This document shows positions 3,304 through 21,524 of a DNA stretch of 47,793 bases, in pieces; position 1 is the stretch's first letter; every line of letters begins with the position of its first letter. Origin of the DNA: an uncultured Pseudomonadota bacterium. GTDB lineage: Bacteria; Bdellovibrionota_B; Oligoflexia; Oligoflexales; CAIMVM01. The stretch lies in the NCBI GenBank assembly GCA_903844895.1, contig CAIMVM010000088.1, positions 1-47,793 on the forward strand, read 5' to 3'. Below the pieces are notes generated by a model. That model worked only from the letters and a program-made list of their open reading frames with translations. It was not told where the DNA came from and ran no database searches. The position numbers were made by a program, and so were the translations under genes.

Positions 3304-4599
3304 ATGAACTATATTTTTAAAACATGCTGGCTCGTGCTGTGCTTTGTGTTTGTTTCTTGTGGGCAGGAAATAAGTTCAACAGAAAAAGTGATCTATGGTG
3401 ATAACGGCATAGTCGATATTTCAGCAGCGTCGAGCAAAAGGTGGTTGAACGAATTTAAAAGCGTAGCGCTCATTACAGAAAAATCTCGCCTCATTAAGAG
3501 ATTTGGGGCCAACTTTCTTGAAGAAAAAGCTCCTACAAAAGCTGCAATCTGCGAAAAAGAGCCTTTCGAAAACGCCAGAAATTTGGGCCATTGTTCAGGC
3601 TCCCTCATTGAATACGATCTTCTCGTTACCGCGAAACACTGCCTGGAAGTAGTTCCAGATGGCTGTTCAGGTCTGGCGATAGTCTTTGATATGACGTCTC
3701 ACCTCCCGTTAAAAGTTTCACGGCCATTAGGCCAGTCACAACTATTTACTTGCAAGCGTGTCTATCAGCCTACAGATCCATTAAGTGATTTGATTATGAT
3801 TCGGCTTGATCGTCCTACAAACAGATCTAGCTTAAATTTTACTGAAACTGAAGATTGGCTTTCGATTGGTGAGTTAACGGTACTTGGGCATCCCTTGGGT
3901 GGCGATCAAAAAGTGGCATCGGGAGGTAGTTTTAGAAAAAGTTTTGACAATGATCAGCTTCTTGCAGAGCTTGACGTATTCGAAGGCAATTCAGGTTCGC
4001 CTGTCTTTTCGAACGATAAAGAAGTTCGAGGAATCCTCTTGGGAGGGGAAGTGGATTTTCAGACAGACCCGACGGGTTGTCTTCGTGTAAAACGCTGTCC
4101 CCAGGGGAACTGTACGGGAGAAACGATGATTTCAAGTCGCTCCATTAAAGAGCTACATAGTCAAATAGAGCGCATCGAAAGAGTTTCAAAGCTTCCTCAA
4201 AAAGTAATTTTTGATGGAATCCTATTCCAAGAGCAAGCCATCCCAGAGCCTTCAGCAAACGATTCCTCTCCATCGCTAGTAGCGAAGTTTAAGATAGACG
4301 ACAAAGTGCTGTTAAGTGAAATCCATATACATCTAGACATCATTCATTCGAATCTCTCAGACATCACCTTTGAGCTTATTTCTCCAAGTGGGAAGGTCAT
4401 TCCTCTTCTTGACCGAGTCTATAAACAATCAGAGGAACCACTTGTCTTTGATTTTAGAAGCAAAGTAGATTCTGTTTTGGACTCAATAATTGGCTATGAG
4501 GCCTCTGGCGAATGGCAATTAACCATAAGGGATCTCTCAGAGTTGCAGTCTGGCAGGATATTGACATTAACTGTTGAAATGAAAGGGGCCTTCCCTTAG
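3304..4599 (+). CDS. Trypsin-like serine protease lipoprotein with P domain
   Basis: The signal peptide ends in lipobox FVSC, making Cys19 the lipidated residue. A chymotrypsin-fold protease follows with a complete triad: His112 in LLVTAKHCLE, Asp162 in SDLIMIRLD and Ser230 in EGNSGSPVF. The GNSGSP form is typical of bacterial S1B/glutamyl-endopeptidase-like enzymes. Residues about 330-430 form a proprotein-convertase P (Homo B) domain, with the strand pattern DITFELISPSG and the terminal GEWQLTIRD. P domains normally assist folding or substrate positioning in secreted proteases. The protein is probably anchored to a membrane and faces the periplasm or outside. It follows the flavoprotein gene by 13 bases. 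Confidence 0.88.
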   Translation: MNYIFKTCWLVLCFVFVSCGQEISSTEKVIYGDNGIVDISAASSKRWLNEFKSVALITEKSRLIKRFGANFLEEKAPTKAAICEKEPFENARNLGHCSGSLIEYDLLVTAKHCLEVVPDGCSGLAIVFDMTSHLPLKVSRPLGQSQLFTCKRVYQPTDPLSDLIMIRLDRPTNRSSLNFTETEDWLSIGELTVLGHPLGGDQKVASGGSFRKSFDNDQLLAELDVFEGNSGSPVFSNDKEVRGILLGGEVDFQTDPTGCLRVKRCPQGNCTGETMISSRSIKELHSQIERIERVSKLPQKVIFDGILFQEQAIPEPSANDSSPSLVAKFKIDDKVLLSEIHIHLDIIHSNLSDITFELISPSGKVIPLLDRVYKQSEEPLVFDFRSKVDSVLDSIIGYEASGEWQLTIRDLSELQSGRILTLTVEMKGAFP

Positions 4600-5052: not shown

Positions 5053-5844
5053 TTATTCTTGTTTTAACTTCTTTGAGTTTAAAGTGCTTCTAGAAACAGA
5101 AATCTCATAGACTTTTGCGTACCGAATCAGCATTGAAAATGAAGAAATCAACGCAATGATAAGGCCCTCTCGGCCGTCCATAAATCCGCGCCTTAGGAAA
5201 TAACTTTCGAAAAAAGTCCAATGGCTCTTAAGCATCATTTTTAATATAGGGAATTGACCTCTATTTGAAGTCACTAACTGTTTGGATTGAATGCTGGAAA
5301 AGTTATTGGAAGTTTTTACATGGTCAAAGATGTTTTCGTAGGAGTAGTGCAGAATGTCTTGCGGAATGTCGCAAAACTGGCCTGTTAGGATAATTTTGTC
5401 ATGAGGGTTTTTGCCTCCCCAAATGGCTTTGTCTTTTTTAAAAAGTCTCAATTGTTTATCAGGATAGAACCTGCCATGCTTGATCCAACGAGTTAAATAC
5501 CAAGTAGACCTGTGAAACCTGTACCCATCATAATTAGGTTTATTTCGAAATATCTCTAAAATAGAGGACCTAAGTTCCGGCGATACTCGCTCATCGGCGT
5601 CTAGTGCTAAAACCCATTCCATGCTAGCGAAAGAAAGGGCTTTGTTCTTTTGTTCTATATGGCCAAGAAACTTTTGCTTATAAACCTTAGCACCAAGAGA
5701 TTCTGCGATTGTACATGTGTCATCGTCTGAAAACGAGTCTAAGACGATAACTTCTGAGACAAAGTCCATGGACTTAATGCATTCGGCTATGTTGCCCGCT
5801 TCATTTAAAGTGATTATGCAAGCTGAGATGGGAAGTTTATTCAT
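5053..5844 (-). CDS. Family 2 glycosyltransferase, WaaE/KdtX-like
   Basis: This GT-A fold enzyme opens with ISACIITLNEAGNIAECI and carries the nucleotide-sugar and metal-binding motif LALDADERV near residue 85. VIVLDSFSDDDTC and GHIEQKNKAL are characteristic of the beta-1,4-glucosyltransferase group (WaaE/LpsK-like) that modifies lipopolysaccharide core. The C-terminal region includes a hydrophobic stretch that may bind the membrane. The chosen ATG overlaps the end of the O-antigen ligase-like gene; a TTG two codons upstream (5850) is an alternative. It is the last gene of the minus-strand operon, which suggests transfer of a sugar to a lipid-linked glycan. Acceptor and donor are unknown. Confidence 0.82.
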   Translation of the reverse strand: MNKLPISACIITLNEAGNIAECIKSMDFVSEVIVLDSFSDDDTCTIAESLGAKVYKQKFLGHIEQKNKALSFASMEWVLALDADERVSPELRSSILEIFRNKPNYDGYRFHRSTWYLTRWIKHGRFYPDKQLRLFKKDKAIWGGKNPHDKIILTGQFCDIPQDILHYSYENIFDHVKTSNNFSSIQSKQLVTSNRGQFPILKMMLKSHWTFFESYFLRRGFMDGREGLIIALISSFSMLIRYAKVYEISVSRSTLNSKKLKQE

Positions 5845-7189
5845 TTTCAAATCGATTTCTGTCAGCAGCTGACCAAACGAGAATCCAAAGGAGACTCATG
5901 ATGACTACGGTGACTCCTGAATCAAAGAAGACATTTTGCGTAAAACCATGGGCCATATTGAGAGCTACTCCAACTGACAAGGCATGAAAAAGTGAGTTCG
6001 AGGTTCTTGTGCTGGCGCAAATCTGTTTTAATAGAAAGTAAATTCGGAAGAGAAGGGCTGCGAGGATTAGGCTGCCCAGCGCCCCAATATTAGAAAGTGT
6101 TTCGAAGAAAATATTATGTGCATTGAACTTTTCAGGGAAGTTTCTGAGTCCCATGGCATCGTAATACATAAGCCTAACGCCCTTAGTAAGGTGGCTGTAT
6201 CCTTGTCCCCAAAGGGGAGAGTCGAGAAACATTTGCCAGTGAACGCGCCAAAAAGTGAGTCGATTGGGCGCATTTCCACTTTGGTTGAAGTCGACCATTT
6301 CTAAGTAGCGTTGGCCCACACTCGAAAAAAGCACGAGAGAAAGAGTTGCTAATAGCATAACTATGGATAGCAAAATAATCACTCGCCATCGCAAGAAGTT
6401 TTTAGCGCCTAAAATGGCTACAACAAAGAGCCAAGCAAGGGCGATAAAAAGTGCCGTTCGACCGCCGGAAGCAAACAAGAAAAATAGGTTTGTCAAAAGA
6501 ATGATGAGAAGCGGCACTTGATTGCGGCTGCCACGAATAAATGCCTTTTTAAAAAGTGTGGAAGAAAAGCCGACGAGCGACAAAGAAATGCCTGCAATGG
6601 TGAGGGGATGCCCAGAAAAGCCTTGAATTCTGTAGCTTCCCCCGGGAAACCTCATATTAGGTAAATAAGACTGCGAACTTCTAAAATCAAAGCCAGTGAA
6701 ATGTTGATAAGCAAAATAGAAAAAGAAAATCACGCAAAAGATTGCGAGCATGAGTACCCAAGCATTATAGGAGAAGAATGTTCTGCGGTCTCTTCGCTTT
6801 ACTTGACTTAAAATCCAGAGAAATGCTCCGGTTATACCAACACTTGAAGGAATTTGGCTTAAATAAACAGGGCCGGACAATCTTACGAAGTGATTAATTT
6901 CTAGCGGGCCGGGCCAATTTGCAGTAGGAAACATCAAGGTATGTCTGAGAGGAAAAAACAAGCTAATAACATTGAACACAGGCCATAGAAGCCAGATACT
7001 CACAAGAGAAATACCTAATTTTCGAATGAGGTACCTTTGTCGCGGGTCTCCTAAGCTAAATGAAAGAAAAGGTACTAGAATGAAACAAATCACAAGCCCA
7101 GCATTCTGAGCAGCCATTCCTAAATACAAAAATAGGGGCCCTAAATAGAATAGAAAGAGAATATTAATAATTCGTCTCCATTTTACCAT
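5837..7189 (-). CDS. O-antigen ligase / Wzy_C-type membrane protein
   Basis: This is a polytopic inner-membrane protein with about 10-12 hydrophobic segments. The Wzy_C features are visible: FASGGRTALFIALAW in the middle, a large periplasmic loop with FWRVHWQMFLDSPLWGQGYS, and NAHNIFFETLSNIGALGS with the conserved His before the last helices. The family either ligates lipid-linked glycan to lipid A core or polymerises O-units in the periplasm. The ATG at 7189 overlaps the 3' end of the ATPase gene. A GTG at 7216 would add nine residues. The downstream glycosyltransferase overlaps it, so the two are translationally coupled. Confidence 0.82.
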   Translation of the reverse strand: MVKWRRIINILFLFYLGPLFLYLGMAAQNAGLVICFILVPFLSFSLGDPRQRYLIRKLGISLVSIWLLWPVFNVISLFFPLRHTLMFPTANWPGPLEINHFVRLSGPVYLSQIPSSVGITGAFLWILSQVKRRDRRTFFSYNAWVLMLAIFCVIFFFYFAYQHFTGFDFRSSQSYLPNMRFPGGSYRIQGFSGHPLTIAGISLSLVGFSSTLFKKAFIRGSRNQVPLLIILLTNLFFLFASGGRTALFIALAWLFVVAILGAKNFLRWRVIILLSIVMLLATLSLVLFSSVGQRYLEMVDFNQSGNAPNRLTFWRVHWQMFLDSPLWGQGYSHLTKGVRLMYYDAMGLRNFPEKFNAHNIFFETLSNIGALGSLILAALLFRIYFLLKQICASTRTSNSLFHALSVGVALNMAHGFTQNVFFDSGVTVVIMSLLWILVWSAADRNRFENE

Positions 7190-7847
7190 CTTTGATTCTA
7201 AGGGTCCGGCGGGCACGGTCCATTACTCTTGGGTCATGGGTAGCAAAGATAAAGGTAACTTGATGGTTCTTATTCAAATTTACCATAAGGTCTAAAATTT
7301 GATCGCTGGTTTTAGAGTCAAGATTTGCAGTCGGCTCATCCGCCAAAACAATACTTGGAGAGGTAATCAATGCCCTAGCGATAGCTACTCGCTGTCTTTG
7401 ACCGCCTGACAGTTCATCAGGTTTATGGTGAACAAAAGACGAAAGACCTACTTCCTCACAAATTTTAAGAACATTTTCCCTAAGATTGGGATCACGGTCT
7501 TTTCTAAGGAGGCAGGGAAATTCAATATTTTCCATCACATTTAAAACGGGAATGAGATTGAAACTTTGGAAAATAAAGCCAATCTTTCGGTTTCTGATCT
7601 CAGAAAGGCTGTTAAAATCTCGGCCGGCAATCTCTTCGCCGTCTAATATATAAGACCCAGAAGTAGCTCTATCCAAACATCCAATAATGTTAAGAAGCGT
7701 AGATTTTCCAGATCCAGATGGGCCGAGGACTACGGTGAATTCGCCTTTAACGATTTCAAGATCAATGCCGCGTAGGGCATCAATCACGGTTTTTCCGAGG
7801 ATATACTGGCGCGTGACTCCAGAGATTTTAATAATATTTTCTGTCAT
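7164..7847 (-). CDS. ABC transporter ATPase, LolD/MacB family
   Basis: This 227-residue cytoplasmic nucleotide-binding subunit has Walker A GPSGSGKST near residue 42, the Q-loop in GFIFQSFNLIPVL, the signature LSGGQRQRVAIARAL near 143 and Walker B IVLADEPTANLD near 165, then the H-loop FATHD. Its short length and these motifs fit the LolD/MacB/FtsE group, which powers FtsX-type permeases by mechanotransmission rather than classic substrate translocation. The start ATG has AAGGTG six bases upstream. It lies eight bases after the beta-barrel gene and is the obvious partner of the two permeases encoded upstream in the same operon. Confidence 0.93.
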   Translation of the reverse strand: MTENIIKISGVTRQYILGKTVIDALRGIDLEIVKGEFTVVLGPSGSGKSTLLNIIGCLDRATSGSYILDGEEIAGRDFNSLSEIRNRKIGFIFQSFNLIPVLNVMENIEFPCLLRKDRDPNLRENVLKICEEVGLSSFVHHKPDELSGGQRQRVAIARALITSPSIVLADEPTANLDSKTSDQILDLMVNLNKNHQVTFIFATHDPRVMDRARRTLRIKDGKMETNY

Positions 7848-7855
7848 AGGGCACC

Positions 7856-9103
7856 TTAAAAATAGGCTTTAATTTCAAATGAAGTTCTTAAAGGCATCGG
7901 AAACAAATCTTGCTCACTGACTTTGGAACCATCTGGCAGCTTAGCTCCAGAAAATGACTTGTTATAAAAACCAACGAGAGAAAGCGAAAGCCAATCCCGC
8001 GCCATCCAGTTCACTCCAGGACTCATAGCAGCGGCACGATGGACGGGATTGATCAAAGTATTGAATGTAAAGAAGACGTCATCATTATACTTATATCTTT
8101 GAAGTCCCAAAGCAAAATGATCTTTTAAATAAAGCTTTCCTGTTAGGTTTTCATCGCTATTTCCAGAAGGTCGCTGGCCCAGCTTTTTTCCTACATAGAG
8201 TTTTTTCGCTAGACTTGCGAATTCACTGGCGCTTTGACCGAGATCATTGTGAAGATATTCTAAGGTCAAGGTGCTTTCATTGGAAAAGGTATAACCGAAA
8301 CCTAAAATGTAATCTTTTTGACCTTTTGCGCTTTTAAGCAATGCCTCTCCATGGACCTCTAGAGCATCTACAACAAGACCTGAAACCGAAACGCCCGTGT
8401 CAATATCCCTGACGCCTGGCTTCGTATAGCCATTGTCATCAAGACGCATGATGCTCAGGTCATAGGTTCCAAGCAGAGTCCAGTAGCGAGCTGCGGTCAT
8501 TTCTCTCGTCTTCCCTTCTACTTCGTAGATTTGATCGGGAATACCATTTTCTTTTTCCCTGGTGACGCCACTCTTTAAAATAGTCCACGTCGAGGATTCT
8601 TTGCGATAGTCTACGGATCCTAAAAAAGTTCCCTTTCGCGCAGCCGTCGGGTCCAAAATGTTTTTGGACGGATTGATAAGATCGGTGGGGTTTTTAAAAT
8701 ATCCACTTCCCCAGGTTATGCGCTTTCTGCCAAAGGTAAGACTCCAACTCGGAAGCGGCTCGTATACTCCGTAAATTTCATTTAAAGAAATTTTCCCCTT
8801 TCTGCGATCCGACATAGGCTTTTCTATGTCAGCTCGAGTGCCGCTTTTTTCCCCATCGAAATTTTCAAGAATAAGCCCCAGCAACGAGCTATCAATTAAA
8901 AAGAAAGTAGACTCTTGGGGTTTAAATTTAGCGGTTGCCTGCCATTGGTACGTCTGAACAAACTGGGGAACATCATCTGAAGATATAAGCCCATCAGTAA
9001 CTGTACGGCCCACATCGGTTTTTACACTTACATCCTGTGCCAGTTCTACCCCAAGGGCTTGGAATGAGACGAATAGTCCTATGAGGAGCTTGCGGGCCAT
9101 CAT
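7856..9103 (-). CDS. Predicted outer-membrane beta-barrel protein
   Basis: An N-terminal signal peptide (MARKLLIGLFVSFQALGVELA) precedes about 390 residues of alternating strands rich in aromatic and polar residues (TFGRKRITWGSGYF, TLTLEYLHNDLG). The chain ends in TSFEIKAYF, a terminal aromatic as recognised by the BAM complex. Size and texture resemble DUF1302-like barrels found with LolA-like proteins in lipid-export loci, but the family assignment is tentative. The start overlaps the stop of the LolA-like gene (TAATG). The gene is sandwiched between the periplasmic carrier and the ATPase, which suggests it is the outer-membrane component of the same system. Confidence 0.75.
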   Translation of the reverse strand: MMARKLLIGLFVSFQALGVELAQDVSVKTDVGRTVTDGLISSDDVPQFVQTYQWQATAKFKPQESTFFLIDSSLLGLILENFDGEKSGTRADIEKPMSDRRKGKISLNEIYGVYEPLPSWSLTFGRKRITWGSGYFKNPTDLINPSKNILDPTAARKGTFLGSVDYRKESSTWTILKSGVTREKENGIPDQIYEVEGKTREMTAARYWTLLGTYDLSIMRLDDNGYTKPGVRDIDTGVSVSGLVVDALEVHGEALLKSAKGQKDYILGFGYTFSNESTLTLEYLHNDLGQSASEFASLAKKLYVGKKLGQRPSGNSDENLTGKLYLKDHFALGLQRYKYNDDVFFTFNTLINPVHRAAAMSPGVNWMARDWLSLSLVGFYNKSFSGAKLPDGSKVSEQDLFPMPLRTSFEIKAYF

Positions 9104-9837
9104 TATCCTTTCCCTAGATCCGTTTGGAGGAATTTTTGGGGAGCAGGAGTAATATCAATTTTAATTTTTTTAACGACAAGAATGCTCGATCGTGCCGGGA
9201 CAATCTCGTTCTTCATCAGAACTTTTGCTGGTCGTGTATAGGACTTGCTATATTCTTTGACGTCACTAAATTCAGCGCTTCGAAGCTTTTTACCACTTGT
9301 ACCGAAATATTCCCCTTTTAGGGGCATAAAGTTAGATTTTGCGATCCAAAGATGGATCAAGTCATAGGACGTGTCTTTGTTTTTTGATTTTAGCTCTAGT
9401 TTGTAACTTGAAGGATCCTCACTGGTAATGATTTTCCCATCAAAGTCTTTTGTGTAGTTGACTCTCAATATATCTGAATTATTGAAGTCACCACCTTGAA
9501 AGCTGTCGCGATTTGCTAGGCGAGAGGCTCTCTTCAAATTGGGGAGGTAGAGCCAAGAGTTGTCGCCAATACGCAGAATCTCTTGCCCAGAGACTGCGCT
9601 GGGGGAAGTAAACCAGATGCGAAATTTATCGTCTCCTGATTTAAGGGCCTTCATGGAATAAGTGCGGGAGGTTCCGTCCTCACGATTCGAAGTCATGTCC
9701 ATTTCGGACTCAAACTGAGCTGGTCCCATAATTTTGTCATATTTTTCAAGTAACTCTGCCGCTGTAACATCCGCATAGGCATTTTGATTGAAGGTGTAAT
9801 TCATAGCGAGCAGTAGACAAAAAGAGATTCGATTCAT
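9103..9837 (-). CDS. LolA-like outer-membrane lipoprotein-sorting protein
   Basis: This is a periplasmic protein of about 244 residues with a signal peptide (MNRISFCLLLAMNYTFNQ..YA). It then shows the LolA/LppX-like pattern of COG2834 (TP0789-type): AAELLEKYDKIMGP, FRIWFTSPSAVSGQEIL, GDNSWLYLPNLKRASRL and the strand LIHLWIAKSNFMPLKGEYF. Such proteins carry a lipid or acylated substrate in a half-barrel across the periplasm. The start at 9837 has TTAGGAG seven bases upstream; an upstream extension to 9867 lacks this. Its neighbours are the FtsX permease upstream and the barrel downstream, matching a Lol-like relay. Confidence 0.82.
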   Translation of the reverse strand: MNRISFCLLLAMNYTFNQNAYADVTAAELLEKYDKIMGPAQFESEMDMTSNREDGTSRTYSMKALKSGDDKFRIWFTSPSAVSGQEILRIGDNSWLYLPNLKRASRLANRDSFQGGDFNNSDILRVNYTKDFDGKIITSEDPSSYKLELKSKNKDTSYDLIHLWIAKSNFMPLKGEYFGTSGKKLRSAEFSDVKEYSKSYTRPAKVLMKNEIVPARSSILVVKKIKIDITPAPQKFLQTDLGKG

Positions 9838-9847
9838 AATAAAACTC

Positions 9848-11068
9848 CTAACTTCTAAGGGCATCAACGGGATTGAGGTTCGACGCTTTTAAGGCCGGCA
9901 AAAAACCGGCTAATATAGTACAAATACACGCGGCAAGAACAGAGCCTGCGGCAAAGCTCGAAGACACTTCTGGATAGAGAAGAGTTTTTTGAAACACAGC
10001 TGTAAACTCCACCCCATTTAGGGACATGATAAAATTGGCTCCTATTCCAAGCAGAGCGCCTAGGACACCACCTACTAGGCCTAAGGTAAAGGCTTCTAAA
10101 ATGAAAATGCGAAGGATCTGTCCCTGAGTGACACCAATCGCCAGCATCGTGCCAATCTCTTTGTTTCGCTCGTGGACGGTCATCAACATGGTGTTTCCTA
10201 CGAGGAACATCACCAGGACAAAAAGCACCACTGAGACGATACTTATGATCACTTTTTGTCTAAAGACGACATCCCGAATAAAGGGCTGTGCTTCCTGCCA
10301 GTCAATAACTTCATATTTGTTTCCTAGAAGCTCCCGGAGCTTTGCCTTTACGGCAGGTATGTTTTCCATATGATCAACGCTTAAGGCTAGCTCTGTGACT
10401 CTCTGCTCTAATCCCGTCAGATCCTGAGCAAGCTTTAAGGGAACGGTTACAAACCTTAACTCCGCTAATGCATTCAGAGCTGCCGCTGTACCTGAAACGG
10501 AAGCATCGACAGCATTTTGTCTGCCTTCAGGGCTTGCCCCGGAAAGGGTTACATTTGATGAAGAACCAACATCTAAATCCAGAGAGTTCGCCAGCTCATT
10601 GCCTACAATAATCTGAGATGCATCCTCGTCCTTTAATGATCTACCTTTTGTAATGATGCTAGGTGCTTGAGGACATACTTTAAGTTCAGAACTTGGTTTA
10701 ACACCCGTGCCAAAGACAATGGTTTGGTTTTTGCCGTTAGAAATCGTTCCTGAAAAATTAACTCGCGGAGCGACTCCGGTTACATGTTCGATGGCCAAAA
10801 TTTTTTGTTCAAGTTCAGGTGGATATTCAAAGTTCAGCCCTACTGGATTACCGGCAAGATTCTCCATAAATCCGACCTTGTGAACCTGAATGGCTCCAAT
10901 GCGACTTTTGACGACACTTTCCACGGTCATGTTTAAGAATCCGTCGGCAACTCCTTTTAAAATAATGACAATAGCGATTCCAAAGAAAATCGCAGCCAAG
11001 GTAAAAAGGCTTCTCCTGCGGTTTCTGGTGAGATTTTTAAATGCAATTTGTAAAAAAGTAAGATTCAT
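9848..11068 (-). CDS. ABC transporter permease, FtsX/LolC family
   Basis: A 406-residue inner-membrane protein has one N-terminal membrane helix after FKNLTRNRRRSLFTLAAIFFG and a large periplasmic MacB-like domain (about 45-260). Three C-terminal helices form the FtsX domain, with the typical HERNKEIGTMLAIGVTQGQI. The organisation matches LolC/LolE and MacB half-permeases. The start ATG overlaps the TGA of the preceding permease, so the two are translationally coupled and probably form a heterodimer that uses the ATPase encoded three genes downstream. Confidence 0.92.
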   Translation of the reverse strand: MNLTFLQIAFKNLTRNRRRSLFTLAAIFFGIAIVIILKGVADGFLNMTVESVVKSRIGAIQVHKVGFMENLAGNPVGLNFEYPPELEQKILAIEHVTGVAPRVNFSGTISNGKNQTIVFGTGVKPSSELKVCPQAPSIITKGRSLKDEDASQIIVGNELANSLDLDVGSSSNVTLSGASPEGRQNAVDASVSGTAAALNALAELRFVTVPLKLAQDLTGLEQRVTELALSVDHMENIPAVKAKLRELLGNKYEVIDWQEAQPFIRDVVFRQKVIISIVSVVLFVLVMFLVGNTMLMTVHERNKEIGTMLAIGVTQGQILRIFILEAFTLGLVGGVLGALLGIGANFIMSLNGVEFTAVFQKTLLYPEVSSSFAAGSVLAACICTILAGFLPALKASNLNPVDALRS

Positions 11069-12318
11069 GTCGCTTGCAATGCCTCCACAGGATCAAGGCG
11101 GCTGGCCCTATAGGCAGGCCAAAGACTAACCAGGCTTGTGAAGAGGATGGAGATCGATCCATTTGCCAAAACCCACGAAGGGTCAAGTGTCGGACGCATT
11201 AGGAATTTAAACGTGGATCCTGGCGCACTTATGGGTATCCCAAAATGATGCATCAAAAAAACGAAAAAGTAACCTGCTAAAACGCCAGCAAAGGCACCTA
11301 CAACCGCTAGTAGAAAGCCCTCAACTACGAAAAGAAGCACGATCTGCTGTCTTCTTACGCCTACCGACATCATGGTGCCAATCTCTCTTGTGCGCTCCAA
11401 AACACTCATAAACATGGCATTCACAATTCCCAAAATAATAACTGTATAAAAAGCAATGGATATAAAATAGAAAATTCTACCTATATCTGCAGTCATCTTC
11501 TTGAGAACTGGAATTAATTCTTCCCAGGTTTGTACCTCAAACTCTGGCCCTAAGGTTTGCTTAAGGTTCTGGGCCGTTGTCTCCACCACAGCTAAAGAAC
11601 TGACCCTGAGTAAATAACTTGTAGCAAGGCCTTCCATTCTCAATAGCTTGCGCGCCGTTTCTAGGGGGACGAGAGCAAAGCGCTTGTCTCCAGGTACCGC
11701 GTTAGCAAGAAGTCCCACTGGTTTTAAAATTTCACCATTTAGCGAGCCATCCACATCCGAAGACATTAAAACCGGCCACTGGTCTTCCGTTGCAGCTAGA
11801 TTAATTTTGGAGCCAATAATCGCAGCTAAGTCTTTATTCAAAACGATTTCTTTACGATCGGAATGACTTAGAAAAGTTCCATCAGTCGTCCAACTTTTAA
11901 GATTGGGAGCCACCACGTCTTCGCTTGCCGGATCAATTCCCAAAAGCCCCATAAAAGAAGTTTCAGAGTTTCCTTGAGAGTCGGGTGCGGTTGAGTACAG
12001 TCCGGTAAATTGCAAGCGCGGAGCCAATCCCGTAACCTGCGGAACCGCTAATATTTTGGCTCTTAGTTCTGGGGTATCCTTAATGGATTGATCCAAAGGG
12101 CTAGAAAGTACATTCTTAGAATAACCGGCTTTGTGGATTTGGATCATGCCCGTATAGCCATAAATCGCAGCATCAATTTGCGCCGATAGTACGGCATTTA
12201 TAAATCCCCTGAGACTCATCATGATGCTAATGCCGATGACTAGAGCCCCTAGGGTCAACAAGGTCCGTTTCCGATTCCGTCTCAAGTTGCGGGCGGCAAT
12301 GATTAAAAGTGGATGCAC
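11065..12318 (-). CDS. ABC transporter permease, FtsX/LolE family
   Basis: This 417-residue first gene of the operon has the same topology as its downstream partner. An N-terminal helix follows IAARNLRRNRKRTLLTLGAL, then a periplasmic core of about 220 residues, then three C-terminal helices with LERTREIGTMMSVGVRRQQI. The GTG start has GAGG six bases upstream. A sigma70-like promoter precedes it. Having two distinct permeases resembles the LolCDE arrangement, although a barrel and O-antigen enzymes in the same operon point to a cargo other than ordinary lipoproteins. The substrate is inferred only from context. Confidence 0.92.
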   Translation of the reverse strand: MHPLLIIAARNLRRNRKRTLLTLGALVIGISIMMSLRGFINAVLSAQIDAAIYGYTGMIQIHKAGYSKNVLSSPLDQSIKDTPELRAKILAVPQVTGLAPRLQFTGLYSTAPDSQGNSETSFMGLLGIDPASEDVVAPNLKSWTTDGTFLSHSDRKEIVLNKDLAAIIGSKINLAATEDQWPVLMSSDVDGSLNGEILKPVGLLANAVPGDKRFALVPLETARKLLRMEGLATSYLLRVSSLAVVETTAQNLKQTLGPEFEVQTWEELIPVLKKMTADIGRIFYFISIAFYTVIILGIVNAMFMSVLERTREIGTMMSVGVRRQQIVLLFVVEGFLLAVVGAFAGVLAGYFFVFLMHHFGIPISAPGSTFKFLMRPTLDPSWVLANGSISILFTSLVSLWPAYRASRLDPVEALQAT

Positions 12319-14790: not shown

Positions 14791-14990
14791 AAAATGAATC
14801 TATTGTCTGTTCACCGCTAGGGTGCGTCCTATCACCCAGAGGGCAAGCTACTTTTTGAGCAATTTTTAGGTTCTTTCCCCAATCTCCTCAGGCCAAAAAC
14901 CCGCCGTTCAAAGGGAATTTCTTTAATTTGGAATGTGCCGGCTATTGGTGTAGGCTCCACGAAAGTCAGGACCAGATTCTAGAGGTTTCT

Positions 14991-17603
14991 TTGAAAAACG
15001 TATTTGTTGTACCACACACTCACTGGGACCGTGCCTGGTACCTACCGTTTGAAGTGTTTAGGCATCGTCTGGTCCGATTTGTCGATAGAGTGCTGCAAGT
15101 ATTAGAAGAAAACGATTCGTTTACCAGTTTTACTTTGGATGGACAGACTGTAGTCCTCGATGATTATTTAGAAATCAGGCCAGAGAACCGCGAGAGGATC
15201 AAGCGCCTAGCAGCTAGTAACAGGATGGAGATGGGTCCCTGGTATACACTTCCAGATCTCATGCTCGCGAGTGGCGAGTCCTTGATTCGAAATATCGAGA
15301 TGGGTTTGAAGCATGCTAAAGAGTTTGGTGGAGGGATGAGGGTTGGCTATGTTCCGGATCCCTTTGGTCATCCAGCCGAACTTCCGCAGGTTTTGGCTGG
15401 CTTTGGTATAGATACCTTCATTTTTATGAGGGGAATTTCTTCCGAATTAAAGTCCCGGGCAGGAAATCACTTTATTTGGAAATCGCCAAGCGGATCTGAA
15501 GTATTAGCGATCTATCAGCCTGGAGGCTACCTAGAAGCTTCCGCTTTAGGATACCCAGAGCAGTGGGGGAGGAACGAGGGACGAGAGCCAGACCTTGAGT
15601 TAGCCAGAAAAAGACTTATGGAGGGGATAGAAGGGGCTTTAAAGCTACAGAGCGAGGCCTCACCGATATTGCTTCCTAACGGTTGTGACCATATGCCTAT
15701 CCAAGCAGAACTTCCAAAAATTATAGAAGATCTCAATCGATCAGGGATGTCACTTTCCATTTCAAACTTATCCCGATATACCAGCGCACTAAAATCAGCA
15801 GCAAAAGATTTGCCATCTTATTCTGGCGATCTTTTGGGAAATGTAGATCATCCGATTTTAAGTAGTGTCTGGTCCACCCACATCCGGCTTAAGATTTTAA
15901 ATCGTCGCGCAGAAAAAATGTTGACGCGATATGTAGAGCCACTTCAGCATTTGCTTCGAAAGTATGGGCCCTCCCAAGAAGCCTTTGTGGAAGGCATGTG
16001 GAGAAAACTATTTAAAAATCAGGCCCATGACGATATTTGCGGGTGTTCTCACGACGATGTTCATAAAGAAGATGAAGCTCGGTTTCAGCGAATCTTAGCT
16101 CTCTCCCAAGATTTGATCTTAGAGAAATTAGAAGCCTTGGCTCTCTGTGAAGGTTTAGGGCCGGTAGCTGGCAAGATGGCTACGAGGCTATTTCTCTTTA
16201 ATCCAAACCCCACGCCGTTTTTAGGTCGTTTAAGTGCAAAAATTTTGATCCCAAATCCATTGGGTGAGTTTGCCTCGGCGACTCCTGCATCGGCTTTGCA
16301 GTGTCGATTTCCGGATGGAAAAATCATTCCAGTTGCCGTGAAAAGTACGACTGCTACGGACATTCGAAATCGATTTTTAGAGACTACCTGGGGAAGATCC
16401 TATGAGATCTTTTTTCCTGCTGAATTGGAATCCCTTCAATATCAGACCGTCACCATAGAGGAGGTCCCTCAAGAGTTTTCTCTTGAACCCTCGACGAATC
16501 AGATTTCGGGCTATGGTTATGAATTCGAAGCATCCTCTCACCAAATGGTTCTTAGGGGTCAAGAGGAAAACTTTGAATTAAAGGACTTTCTATCTTTTGA
16601 GTGGCAAGAAGATTTGGGTGATACCTACTCTGCAAGTATTACGGAAGGCACTCAAGTTCTTTCTAAAATCGTATTCATCGAACCAAGACAGAGATCCATT
16701 AGGGTGGGCTATGAGCTACATGTTAGGCACTCTTCTGGGCTATCCGTTAAGCCGAAGGCCCTTAATATCTCGGTGGACTTTTGTATCGCCTCTGACGCAG
16801 GACTTGAGTTGTCTATTTACTACAATAATGAAGTTAAAGATGGTCGTCTCAGACTATTAATAAAACCTGGGTTCTCCTGCCAGGAAGCGATTTCAGATGG
16901 TCACTTTCGCTTGCTTAGGCAAGGAAGGAGTCCCCTCTTACCATCCTCCCATGCACCTCGTTCCTACCCTGGAGAGTTGCCTTACGATACCAGGCACCAG
17001 GGCGAGTTTGTTCTCTTGGAAGACTCACGCAGAAATCATAGACTGTGGATAGCGAATCGCGGGCATCCGGAGTGGGAGCTTTTAGAGGATGGGATCGCAA
17101 TTACTCTTCATAGATCTATTGGCATGCTGTCGGTGGGTGGCGGACGTATTAGAGGTTGTCAAGCAGGTCCCAGCATTCCTACTCCTTACGCGCAGGTATT
17201 AGGGGAGCATCGACATGAGTTCTGCTTGGGCTTGAGTAGTCTATCTAGAAATGATGCAACAAGGCGAGCACGTTCCTTTACAACCCCAGTCTTTGTCACG
17301 GAAGTCCCTTACCTACGGTATGCCCAGGGTGGGGGGCAGGAGCTCCAGTCTGAACCATTGCTACAAACTCTTGATCCTCGGTTAGTTCTTACAAGTTGCC
17401 GAAGGAAGGGCGCTGACCTGGAAATAAGAATTTACAATCAATCATCCTCTGCAGATGACTTTATATTGCTTCTCCCGCAGTTTAAAGAGCTCCAAAAAAC
17501 GACCTTAGACGGAGAGAGATTTTTAGAAACTATTAAGTCACAAGATGGAAGGTTTACAATTCACTTTAAACCTTCAGAAATCATTACTTTGAGGTGTTTA
17601 TGA
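14991..17603 (+). CDS. GH38 alpha-mannosidase, MngB-like
   Basis: This is a glycoside hydrolase of about 870 residues with the GH38 layout. VVPHTHWDRAWY at residues 6-17 provides zinc ligands His11 and Asp13, and GYVPDPFGH carries the catalytic nucleophile Asp123. NQAHDDICGCSHDD near 345 holds the second zinc-binding histidine region; C-terminal beta domains follow. Length and the opening resemble E. coli MngB (mannosylglycerate hydrolase). It has no signal peptide, so it acts in the cytoplasm on an imported mannoside. I chose the TTG at 14991 because AGAGG lies six bases before it; a TTG at 14928 would add 21 residues unlike the family. It is the first gene of a four-gene catabolic operon. 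Confidence 0.88.
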   Translation: MKNVFVVPHTHWDRAWYLPFEVFRHRLVRFVDRVLQVLEENDSFTSFTLDGQTVVLDDYLEIRPENRERIKRLAASNRMEMGPWYTLPDLMLASGESLIRNIEMGLKHAKEFGGGMRVGYVPDPFGHPAELPQVLAGFGIDTFIFMRGISSELKSRAGNHFIWKSPSGSEVLAIYQPGGYLEASALGYPEQWGRNEGREPDLELARKRLMEGIEGALKLQSEASPILLPNGCDHMPIQAELPKIIEDLNRSGMSLSISNLSRYTSALKSAAKDLPSYSGDLLGNVDHPILSSVWSTHIRLKILNRRAEKMLTRYVEPLQHLLRKYGPSQEAFVEGMWRKLFKNQAHDDICGCSHDDVHKEDEARFQRILALSQDLILEKLEALALCEGLGPVAGKMATRLFLFNPNPTPFLGRLSAKILIPNPLGEFASATPASALQCRFPDGKIIPVAVKSTTATDIRNRFLETTWGRSYEIFFPAELESLQYQTVTIEEVPQEFSLEPSTNQISGYGYEFEASSHQMVLRGQEENFELKDFLSFEWQEDLGDTYSASITEGTQVLSKIVFIEPRQRSIRVGYELHVRHSSGLSVKPKALNISVDFCIASDAGLELSIYYNNEVKDGRLRLLIKPGFSCQEAISDGHFRLLRQGRSPLLPSSHAPRSYPGELPYDTRHQGEFVLLEDSRRNHRLWIANRGHPEWELLEDGIAITLHRSIGMLSVGGGRIRGCQAGPSIPTPYAQVLGEHRHEFCLGLSSLSRNDATRRARSFTTPVFVTEVPYLRYAQGGGQELQSEPLLQTLDPRLVLTSCRRKGADLEIRIYNQSSSADDFILLLPQFKELQKTTLDGERFLETIKSQDGRFTIHFKPSEIITLRCL

Positions 17604-18508
17604 AGGTTACAGGAACATTTTTAGATGAAATTACTCATGATATTTCGTCGCAAAATTGGAGTGAAGAAGATTGGGCCAAAGACTTTGACGCCATGAAAGA
17701 GGACGGCATCGATACTGTGATTTTAATTCGAGCCGGCTATCGGGAGCGCGCGACGTTTGACTCTAAAGTTCTGAATAGAAACTTCAAAATGATGCCGGCC
17801 TACGAAGATTTGGTAGATCTTTACCTACGCGAAGCCGAGCGAACAGGTATGAAATTCTTTTTTGGAACATATGATTCAGGCGATCTTTGGAATGAGGGTC
17901 ACTACAAAGAGGAAGTGGAAGTCAATAAAGATTTTTGCAGCGAAGTTATGGAAAAATACGGTGATCGACGCGCTTTTTCAGGTTGGTATATTTCCCATGA
18001 AATCAATACATTCTCTGATGGTATGATGGGCGTTTATACAGATCTTTCTGAGCATTTGAAAAAGCTTAAATCCCTACCCATATTGATTTCCCCCTATATC
18101 AAAGGAGTCAAACAGTTTCCTGGCGAAGCCATCAGTCTAGAACATCATATTGAAGAATGGGATCAGGTATTTAGAAGGCTTGAAGGTTTGGTGGACATTG
18201 TGGCCTTCCAAGATGGGCACGTCCCGCTCGAATACCTGCCTGACTACTTGACAGCAAATCGAGAGCTTGCAACAAAACGCGGGATTGAATCCTGGTCCAA
18301 TGTTGAGTCGTTTGATCGCGATGTTCACATTAAGTTCCCGCCCATAGACTTTAGAAAGCTGCGATACAAGATGGAACAAGCAGAAAAAGCTCATATGTCG
18401 AAACTGATCACATTTGAGTACTCGCACTTTATGAGTCCCCACGCAGATCATCCCGCAGCCCGCGCTTTGAACAGAAAGTACCGCAGGTGGCAAAGGAGCC
18501 TAAAATGA
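17600..18508 (+). CDS. DUF4434-type TIM-barrel protein, putative glycosidase
   Basis: The 302-residue protein begins MKVTGTFLDEITHDIS and continues with WAKDFDAMKEDGIDTVILI, the usual opening of the DUF4434/DUF5109 TIM-barrel group related to glycoside hydrolases. Acidic residues at barrel strand ends (FSGWYISHEIN, DIVAFQDGHV, LITFEYSHFM) could be catalytic. There is no signal peptide. Its ATG overlaps the TGA of the mannosidase gene and its own stop overlaps the next start, so translation is coupled on both sides. Context suggests that it trims or recognises the same mannoside. The activity is not established. Confidence 0.75.
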   Translation: MKVTGTFLDEITHDISSQNWSEEDWAKDFDAMKEDGIDTVILIRAGYRERATFDSKVLNRNFKMMPAYEDLVDLYLREAERTGMKFFFGTYDSGDLWNEGHYKEEVEVNKDFCSEVMEKYGDRRAFSGWYISHEINTFSDGMMGVYTDLSEHLKKLKSLPILISPYIKGVKQFPGEAISLEHHIEEWDQVFRRLEGLVDIVAFQDGHVPLEYLPDYLTANRELATKRGIESWSNVESFDRDVHIKFPPIDFRKLRYKMEQAEKAHMSKLITFEYSHFMSPHADHPAARALNRKYRRWQRSLK

Positions 18509-19674
18509 ATTCCCGGAAGATACAGGACCTTCTTAAGGTCTACGAAAATGAACTTTTTAGCCGCGTCATTCCCTTTTGGGAGAAGCATTCTTTAGATATT
18601 CAGCATGGCGGATATTTCAACTGTCTCGACGCTGATGGTACAGTTTATGACAGAACCAAGCACATTTGGCTTCAAGGCCGACAGGTTTGGATGTTTTCAA
18701 AACTCTATAATACGGAAGTCCAAAATCCTGAGTGGTTGAAAATAGCTAAAAGCGGCGCGGAGTTTTTAAGAAGGCATGCCATCCTACCTGACGGTCGCGT
18801 GATGTTTTCTTTGTCTGAGGATGGAAAGCCTGTCCAGTACCAACGTAAAATGTATTCCGCCTGTTTCGTTGCTTTGGGTTTTTCCGAGTATGGGAAAGCA
18901 AGTGGAGATTCCTGGTATAGCAATAAAGCTCAGGAGCTTCTTAGGCAGATTTGGCGATGGGCCTTTCATCCAGAGGATCTCAGAGGACCTTCCTTTGAAG
19001 GAGAAACTCCCTCACAAACTCTTGCGGTGCCTATGATACTTCTGAATCTCTTTGAAGAAATTTGTGGTCCAGATATTTCGAAGTGGTCCAAAGAAATCGA
19101 GTTCTGCGTCGAGGAGATGCTGGAACATGTAAATACCCAACAGAAAATGGTTTTTGAAAATGTGGGCCCTAAAGGTGAGCTCCTGGATTCTCCCCAGGGC
19201 AGACTTATAAACCCTGGGCATGCCATCGAAGGAGGCTGGTTCTTGATGCATTGGGCCAAGCGTTTCAATCGTCCTGACTGGAAAAATCATGCCCTGAACA
19301 TGGCAAGATGGTCCCATGAGCTGGGTTGGGATAAAGAGAAGGGCGGATTGTTTTACTTTATCGATGCCAAAGGATTTTCGCCTCTACCTCTTGAATGGAA
19401 TATGAAACTGTGGTGGCCCCATTGTGAGGCTTTGTACGCTCATTTGCTTAATTTTAAAGAGACTGGTGACGCAAGAGACTGGGAGTTATTTTTGACCACC
19501 CACGAGTACACATTTTCCCATTTTCCAGATTCCCAACATGGGGAGTGGTTTGGTTATTTGGACCGCAGTGGTGAGGTTACTCATAGGTTTAAAGGAGGCC
19601 CCTACAAAGGATGCTTCCACGTACCTAGGGCGCTTTGGTTAGTAAAAAGATTGTTAAAGGAGTTTTCGCTATGA
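18505..19674 (+). CDS. AGE-family epimerase (N-acylglucosamine 2-epimerase-like)
   Basis: This is an (alpha/alpha)6-barrel sugar epimerase/isomerase of 389 residues. Family landmarks are HGGYFNCLDADG, KHIWLQGRQVWMFSKLYN, NPGHAIEGGWFLMHWAKRF with the catalytic His, KLWWPHCEALYA with the second His, and YKGCFHVPRALW. AGE enzymes interconvert GlcNAc/ManNAc, cellobiose epimers, or mannose with fructose or glucose. After a mannosidase, conversion of released mannose or a mannose-ended disaccharide is the most natural role. The ATG at 18505 overlaps the preceding TGA and has AAGGAG six bases upstream. Confidence 0.9.
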   Translation: MNSRKIQDLLKVYENELFSRVIPFWEKHSLDIQHGGYFNCLDADGTVYDRTKHIWLQGRQVWMFSKLYNTEVQNPEWLKIAKSGAEFLRRHAILPDGRVMFSLSEDGKPVQYQRKMYSACFVALGFSEYGKASGDSWYSNKAQELLRQIWRWAFHPEDLRGPSFEGETPSQTLAVPMILLNLFEEICGPDISKWSKEIEFCVEEMLEHVNTQQKMVFENVGPKGELLDSPQGRLINPGHAIEGGWFLMHWAKRFNRPDWKNHALNMARWSHELGWDKEKGGLFYFIDAKGFSPLPLEWNMKLWWPHCEALYAHLLNFKETGDARDWELFLTTHEYTFSHFPDSQHGEWFGYLDRSGEVTHRFKGGPYKGCFHVPRALWLVKRLLKEFSL

Positions 19675-21524
19675 GTACCCTAACCTGGATTGACTATATC
19701 ATTATATTGATGTCCATCAGCATAACTCTATGGCTGGGCTTCGCCATGCAAAAAAAGGCATCCAAAGGTATTTCCTCTTTTTTTCTTGGGGATAGAAATA
19801 TTCCATGGTGGGCCCTGGGTGCTTCAGGAATGGCTTCCAATATTGATGTGTCGGGAACCATGGTCATTGTAGCTTTGATTTACGCACTAGGAGCCAAGGC
19901 CCTCTATATTGGCATTCGAGGTGACGTGGTACTTGTCATGGCCTTTTTCATGATTTTTATGGGCAAATGGTCCAGGCGAGCGGGCGTGATGACCATGGCC
20001 GAATGGATGACATTTAGATTTGGGGTTACAAGAGAAGGGCAGACAGCGCGTGCACTAGCTGCCATCAGCCAGTTGGTAGTTCATGTCTGGCTTATTTCCT
20101 ATTTTGCAGTGGGGGGAGGGAAGTTTTTAGCGGAACTTATGGGTATAAATGGTGTTATTTTGGGGATGAGTGCTCCTCAACTGGCCTCTATTCTTCTGAT
20201 TTCTCTGGGCCTTGTTTACACGCTGGCCTCCGGATTTTATGGAGTCGTTTGGACAGATGTTATCCAGGGAGGATTTATCCTTTGTGCGGTCGTATATATT
20301 GTGATTAAGGCCATGAGCTTAGTCCATGTTTCCGACGAATTTATGGTTTCTTTGCCTGCTGGAAAAGACTTCGTTCCTTTTTTGAATCATTTTGAGTCTT
20401 GGTCCAGTATGTGGCCTTCTAAAAATCTTTCTCTTCCTGATACAAGTGACTATGCCAATTACAATCTCTTTGCACTCACTGTTAGTTTTTATGTTTTAAA
20501 AACAATTGTCGAAGGATTAGGCGGTGCTGGGGGCTATATGGGTCAAAGGTATTTTGCGGCCCGCTCCGATCGAGAGGCGGGGTTGCTATCGCTATTTTGG
20601 ATTTTTCTACTTTCATTTAGGTGGCCATTAGTAACGGCATTTGCGCTTCTAGCGCTTGACTACTCAACTCATTACGGTGCTATTTCTGATCCGGAACTTA
20701 TACTTCCGGCAATCATTAACACTTATGTTCCCATTGGTTTTAAAGGACTATTAGTCTCCAGTTTTTTGGCGGCTGCGCTTTCTACCTTTACCGCTATCAT
20801 CAATGCAGGCTCTGCTTACTGGACGAAAGATATCTATCAGGCCTTCATTTCAAAAGACGCGTCTGAAAAAAATCTCGTCAGACAAAGTCGCTGGGCTTCT
20901 CTTTGGATCGTTGTCTTAGGTGTTGCGTTTTCCTTTCCGGTTGTGAATGTGAATGATATTTTTGGTTGGTTAACTCTAGCCTTCGGCCCAAGTCTTTTTA
21001 TACCTTTGGTTCTCCGTTGGTACTGGTGGCGCTTTAACGGTTGGGGGTTTGCTTGGGGCACTCTTCTAGGTATGATCGGAGCCGTTGGGGTTCGCTTCCT
21101 TCCTTTAGGAGGCTTTTTGGACCAAGTCAAAGCGATGCATCTTATGGAAGCTTGGAATTTGTTTGTTCCATCTTTGCTGAGTCTAACGGGTTCTATTCTG
21201 GGTTCTATGCTTACTAACCCAACTGATAAAAGTGTGCTTAAAAACTTCTATTTTAAGACAAAGCCGTTTGGCTTTTGGGGTAAAATCCATGATGAACTCC
21301 CCCTTAAAGATCAATTAGAAATTTCCATCGAAGCAAAACGTGACGTTTTGGGTATTCTTATGGCGGTTCCTTGGCAAATGGCTTTATTTATGACGGGCAT
21401 ACTTTTTGTTATGAAACGTTGGGATCACTTTTCGTTGGCATTGGGAATATCATTGATTTTGACGGTAGGACTTTACTTTGGGTGGTACCGCCATCTGTCA
21501 GATACAACCACGGAACCTAAATAA
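19671..21524 (+). CDS. Sodium:solute symporter (SSS family)
   Basis: This is a polytopic transporter of 617 residues with about 13-14 membrane segments. Typical SSS features include FFLGDRNIPWWALGASGMASNID near residue 35, TMAEWMTFRFG, a SGFYGVVWTDVIQG segment, and AALSTFTAIINAGSAYWTKDIYQ near 380. A sodium gradient would drive uptake of a sugar or glycoside. The ATG overlaps the stop of the epimerase gene, with AAAGGAG upstream. It closes the operon and probably imports the substrate of the mannosidase, which explains why that enzyme has no signal peptide. Specificity is unknown. Confidence 0.92.
   Translation: MSTLTWIDYIIILMSISITLWLGFAMQKKASKGISSFFLGDRNIPWWALGASGMASNIDVSGTMVIVALIYALGAKALYIGIRGDVVLVMAFFMIFMGKWSRRAGVMTMAEWMTFRFGVTREGQTARALAAISQLVVHVWLISYFAVGGGKFLAELMGINGVILGMSAPQLASILLISLGLVYTLASGFYGVVWTDVIQGGFILCAVVYIVIKAMSLVHVSDEFMVSLPAGKDFVPFLNHFESWSSMWPSKNLSLPDTSDYANYNLFALTVSFYVLKTIVEGLGGAGGYMGQRYFAARSDREAGLLSLFWIFLLSFRWPLVTAFALLALDYSTHYGAISDPELILPAIINTYVPIGFKGLLVSSFLAAALSTFTAIINAGSAYWTKDIYQAFISKDASEKNLVRQSRWASLWIVVLGVAFSFPVVNVNDIFGWLTLAFGPSLFIPLVLRWYWWRFNGWGFAWGTLLGMIGAVGVRFLPLGGFLDQVKAMHLMEAWNLFVPSLLSLTGSILGSMLTNPTDKSVLKNFYFKTKPFGFWGKIHDELPLKDQLEISIEAKRDVLGILMAVPWQMALFMTGILFVMKRWDHFSLALGISLILTVGLYFGWYRHLSDTTTEPK

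Follow-up and report, generated by a model that had tools for sequence, protein, structure and literature searches.

Five adjacent genes on the minus strand of the window (the whole 47,793-nt stretch of DNA analysed here), from position 12,318 to 7,164, encode two FtsX/LolE-type permeases, a LolA-like carrier, a predicted outer-membrane β-barrel and a LolD/MacB-type ATPase, and form a conserved unit. Together they probably constitute a dedicated second Lol-like system that exports a hydrophobe to the outer membrane, with a lipid or lipophilic metabolite as the most likely cargo. Two sugar-enzyme genes (Wzy_C and GT2) are joined behind this cassette, without necessarily acting on the cargo. How the cell brings hydrophobes to its outer membrane, LPS and lipoproteins excepted, is to our knowledge still largely unsolved. 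A small five-gene cassette with pump, carrier and barrel, present in multiple copies in one class and in a one-permease form on proteobacterial plasmids, offers a tractable test case.

Gene organisation

The seven open reading frames lie on the minus strand and run from 12,318 to 5,053, as the preliminary description had placed them. Neighbouring genes overlap by 1–53 bp and the single gap, of 8 bp, is between the barrel and ATPase genes. The set is flanked by divergent and convergent genes, a layout which makes it likely that the seven genes share one transcript. A promoter scan gave no more promoter-like matches than expected by chance. The GC content is alike across the seven genes (0.39–0.46) and there is no sign of a recent import of the sugar genes. 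No cargo gene or biosynthetic gene adjoins the cassette within the 47,793-nt window. Other genes in the window include a likely glycan catabolism cluster (14,928–21,524), which encodes a GH38 alpha-mannosidase, a DUF4434 protein, a GlcNAc 2-epimerase family protein and a sodium:solute symporter, and a gene (3,304–4,599) for a trypsin-like protease that is predicted to be secreted and has a proprotein convertase P-domain.

Permeases, ATPase and carrier

Permease A (11,065–12,318, minus strand; 417 amino acids) matches PF02687 (FtsX; 66 bits) and PF12704 (MacB_PCD; 34 bits), and permease B (9,848–11,068, minus strand; 406 amino acids), the gene of which overlaps that of permease A by 4 bp, matches the same two families with 68 and 53 bits, respectively. 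In the lolCE model TIGR02212 they score 91 (A) and 122 bits (B), both under the equivalog cut-off of 362. The nearest PDB relative of permease A is LolF, and the protein is 45–47% identical to the product of the same gene at three other loci (L098–L100). The ATPase (7,164–7,847, minus strand; 227 amino acids) matches ABC_tran with 112 bits and the LolD model TIGR02211 with 234 bits, under the cut-off of 308; its Walker A, LSGGQ signature, Walker B and H-loop motifs are all intact.

The carrier (9,103–9,867, minus strand; 254 amino acids) has a signal peptide-like N-terminus and matches PF17131 with 134 bits (cut-off 30), its only Pfam match, and not PF03548 (LolA). Its PDB relatives (3buu, 3bk5, 9tp6 and 4z48) place it in the LolA superfamily. 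LolA-like carriers of other phyla carry lipoproteins. These Pfam and NCBIfam matches bear out the earlier assignment of two FtsX permeases, a LolA-like carrier and a LolD/MacB ATPase. A scan of genome contigs with the carrier as query gave no match, and a scan with the permease alignment as query recovered four cassette relatives.

The window genome (4.23 Mb in 372 contigs) has a single PF17131 gene, that of the cassette. It also encodes a PF03548 LolA on another contig, and other LolC/E-like permeases that are better LolC/E candidates than the cassette pair. The cassette is therefore not the housekeeping Lol set and represents a second, dedicated system.

The predicted outer-membrane barrel

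The gene at 7,856–9,103 (minus strand) encodes a 415 amino acid protein with a signal peptide-like start, a C-terminal Phe, as is common in outer-membrane proteins, and the motif GRKRITWGSGYFKNPTD. The motif appears in relatives as GK/R..W....NPTD, and 19 of 36 barrel calls have it in the form GK/R..W..NPTD. The protein has no Pfam match above cut-off, PF06980 (DUF1302) included, and a phmmer search against PDB gave no match. The AlphaFold model, based on a 12-sequence alignment (pLDDT 73.5, pTM 0.68), consists mostly of antiparallel strands forming a β-barrel, and its Foldseek matches are the outer-membrane barrels OmpU, AlgE, OmpM1 and Wzi (E 1e-7 to 1e-5; TM approximately 0.4–0.5).

Profile comparisons with hhalign relate the window protein to the barrels associated with MMPL pumps (E = 2e-5) and to the hypothetical proteins of the named proteobacterial cassettes described below (E = 1e-7). 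Some barrels that adjoin PF17131 genes pass the PF06980 cut-off, at both an MMPL-type locus (L044) and an FtsX-type locus (L085). Identity of the window barrel to its closest relatives is only 23–27%. Based on these comparisons, the window barrel appears distantly related to DUF1302, the link being indirect for this protein itself. The model, the C-terminal Phe and the distant DUF1302 relationship agree with the outer-membrane barrel that had been predicted from the DNA, and the check for an unrelated periplasmic protein was negative.

Conservation of the cassette

Four further genomes of the class (loci L038–L041) have the five genes in identical order, and their carriers are 54–57% identical to the window carrier. 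About 20 permuted copies occur elsewhere in the class. The nearest genomes carrying the cassette are MAGs, of which two bear the label Silvanigrella, a member of the Oligoflexia (Bdellovibrionota), where the window genome may also be placed. In these four loci the cassette is followed by aminotransferase-like or unrelated genes and not by Wzy_C and GT2; the aminotransferase-like gene, recognised by sequence inspection, comes directly after the cassette in L038 and L040 and one gene further on in L039.

Partners were sought within four genes of 60 PF17131 loci from the class. FtsX genes were found at 46, ATPase genes at 37, proteins matching the barrel profile at 36 and the full set at 23, all of which are lower bounds as many contigs are short; some barrel calls in this wider set come from an iterated profile, in which drift is possible. 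Genomes of one family in the same order as the window genome (G006, G014, G019, G026 and G034) each contain 5–6 PF17131 genes, often with FtsX and ATPase genes, so that the module has multiplied in that family.

The Wzy_C and GT2 genes

The gene that follows the ATPase encodes a Wzy_C membrane protein of the ligase/polymerase superfamily (5,837–7,189, minus strand; PF04932, 68.6 bits, cut-off 31.7). Its open reading frame extends from 7,216 and the likelier start is at 7,189 (MVKWRR); either start falls inside the ATPase gene. A profile of the Wzy_C orthologues gave no match in PDB and a fold search with the model gave weak SEDS-type matches only. As PF04932 covers both ligases and polymerases and the predicted fold does not discriminate between them, the protein may be either, and of the Wzy_C-type ligase first proposed it is the family assignment that stands. 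The last gene (5,053–5,850, minus strand) encodes a GT2 glycosyltransferase (PF00535, Glycos_transf_2; 54 bits), probably an LPS-core enzyme. The Pfam and NCBIfam models place it at the level of GT2, with no WaaE-specific match; its earlier description as WaaE-like is, however, in keeping with the GT9 heptosyltransferase genes that adjoin orthologues of the sugar genes, including GT2, in several genomes.

Wzy_C has orthologues in 50 of 58 genomes of the class and GT2 in 52 of 56, in each case at other loci. They are not neighbours in the listed relatives, being mostly on different contigs and, in the single-contig genomes G049 and G047, more than 1 Mb apart. None of the 60 cassette loci has a Wzy_C homologue. 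One (L083, genome G048) has a GT2 homologue, which is approximately 7 kb away from a paralogous copy of the cassette and separated from it by a gene on the opposite strand, and in the sister genome G050 the GT2 homologue is approximately 9 kb from the corresponding cassette copy.

The two sugar-enzyme genes thus seem to be cell-surface (LPS) genes of the ordinary kind, located elsewhere in every relative examined, and it is simplest to suppose that genes of the LPS type came to be attached to the end of the cassette in the window lineage. A seven-gene glycolipid operon was rejected as a conserved unit on these counts. A functional tie of the cassette to the sugar genes may exist in the window lineage alone, through a transcript that is probably shared.

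Related loci with other motors

The PF17131 carrier family is also found at six sampled loci with an MMPL/RND pump gene adjoining it or close by (L044, L045, L046, L053 and L059, together with a fusion at L048). In L048, one open frame of 1126 amino acids (7,033–10,413, plus strand) fuses the MMPL pump to the carrier, the carrier part of which matches both PF17131 and DUF1329. On plasmids of E. coli G8, Paraburkholderia and Aliiroseovarius, genes for an ATPase, an FtsX protein, a PF17131 protein and a hypothetical protein occur in a row, with one permease. The genes surrounding these plasmid cassettes encode a ketosynthase, a FeeM-like N-acyl amino acid synthase, a P450 or a phosphopantetheinyl transferase, a gene content that suggests lipophilic products as the cargo there. 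In the E. coli G8 plasmid (NZ_CP060058; L167, 3,018–8,872) the fourth gene of the row encodes the hypothetical barrel, and the cluster has genes for the FeeM-like N-acyl amino acid synthase, a ketosynthase and a crotonase.

The motors have apparently been exchanged around a constant carrier–barrel pair. If so, the pair would be the conserved core of the system. We put forward tentatively the wider proposal that the PF17131/DUF1329 carriers and DUF1302-related barrels are one trans-envelope export module, with an interchangeable FtsX-type ABC or MMPL/RND motor, which might deliver lipids or lipophilic metabolites directly from carrier to barrel without LolB and occur in several specialised copies in the class.

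Proposed function

By homology to LolCDE and MacB, the LolD-like ATPase would hydrolyse ATP so that the FtsX pair could draw the cargo out of the inner membrane, from its outer leaflet. The PF17131 protein, having a LolA fold, would take the cargo and shield it through the periplasm, and the DUF1302-related barrel would take it over and, in the role of LolB, insert or export it. Wzy_C and GT2 would be LPS-core/O-antigen-type genes attached behind the cassette, and their products need have no part in handling the cargo.

The preliminary description had proposed a complete inner-to-outer membrane route for a glycosylated lipid, the seven genes acting together and GT2 and Wzy_C glycosylating the cargo exported by the relay. 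The relay of ABC transporter, carrier and predicted barrel is retained here as a conserved unit. The glycan part is not: the orthologues of both sugar genes are near-universal in the class, apart from each other and unlinked to the ABC genes, several of them lie beside GT9 heptosyltransferase genes, and Wzy_C is absent from all 60 cassette loci. The seven genes do overlap or abut on one strand, and the relatives compared are genomes of the class from outside the window's own family, within which the arrangement could be old or recent. On balance a glycosylated-lipid route appears most improbable.

Sorting of a subset of lipoproteins by a specialised LolCDE–LolA set, with the barrel as a LolB replacement or surface translocon, would fit permeases that are nearest to LolE/LolF and an ATPase nearest to LolD, and lipoproteins are among the candidate cargoes named for Borrelia BBJ23-29 (PMC13078400). 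We consider it unlikely, as a LolA and LolC/E set is encoded elsewhere in the genome, carriers and barrels of the same families accompany MMPL/RND pumps (PMC6394551) and the proteobacterial copies lie within ketosynthase, N-acyl synthase or P450 clusters. MacB-like efflux of small toxic hydrophobic compounds, in which the carrier would serve as adaptor and the barrel would form the exit duct, is suggested by the MacB_PCD domains of the permeases and by the description of AmeABCD as an efflux system (PMC6394551). The carrier, however, belongs to the LolA superfamily and the seven genes include neither a MacA-type adaptor nor a TolC-type duct, which makes such efflux very unlikely. A dedicated exporter of a lipid or lipophilic metabolite is the reading we prefer, although the lipoprotein cargo of LolA-like carriers in other phyla, the lack of an adjoining cargo or biosynthetic gene and the low identity of the barrel to its relatives count against it.

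Comparison with known systems

The Wzy_C ligase/polymerase and GT2/GT9 LPS-core genes of the class are of the same families as the two sugar genes, which in the window are directly behind the ABC cassette. Unlike MacAB-TolC, the seven genes encode no MacA adaptor or TolC duct domains. The cassette resembles LolABCDE of E. coli and LolF/LolD of Francisella in having FtsX-type permeases with periplasmic domains, a LolD-like ATPase and a carrier with the LolA fold. It differs in that its permeases and ATPase score less than the curated LolCE and LolD cut-offs, its carrier belongs to PF17131 and not PF03548, a barrel gene is present where LolB would be needed and the genome encodes another Lol set besides it.

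AmeABCD, which was described in Castellaniella defragrans as an efflux system of monoterpene metabolism, consists of a DUF1302 protein, a DUF1329 protein of the LolA superfamily, AmeC and an HAE3 RND pump (PMC6394551). Both systems combine a LolA-superfamily carrier with an inner-membrane motor and an outer-membrane protein, predicted as such in the cassette; that of AmeABCD is of the DUF1302 type, to which the window barrel, itself without a PF06980 match, is tied by profile comparison. The MMPL versions in relatives within the class parallel AmeABCD. The motor of the cassette is, by contrast, an FtsX-type ABC transporter and not an HAE3/MMPL RND pump, and there is no AmeC-like protein. Borrelia BBJ23-29, proposed in 2026 to deliver a non-polar ligand (PMC13078400), likewise clusters a MacB/LolE-like ABC transporter with a LolA-like carrier and an outer-membrane barrel. 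The Borrelia barrel is of the Omp85 type and is accompanied by a single permease, which is homodimeric, and by two TPR proteins, whereas the cassette has a DUF1302-related barrel and two permeases.
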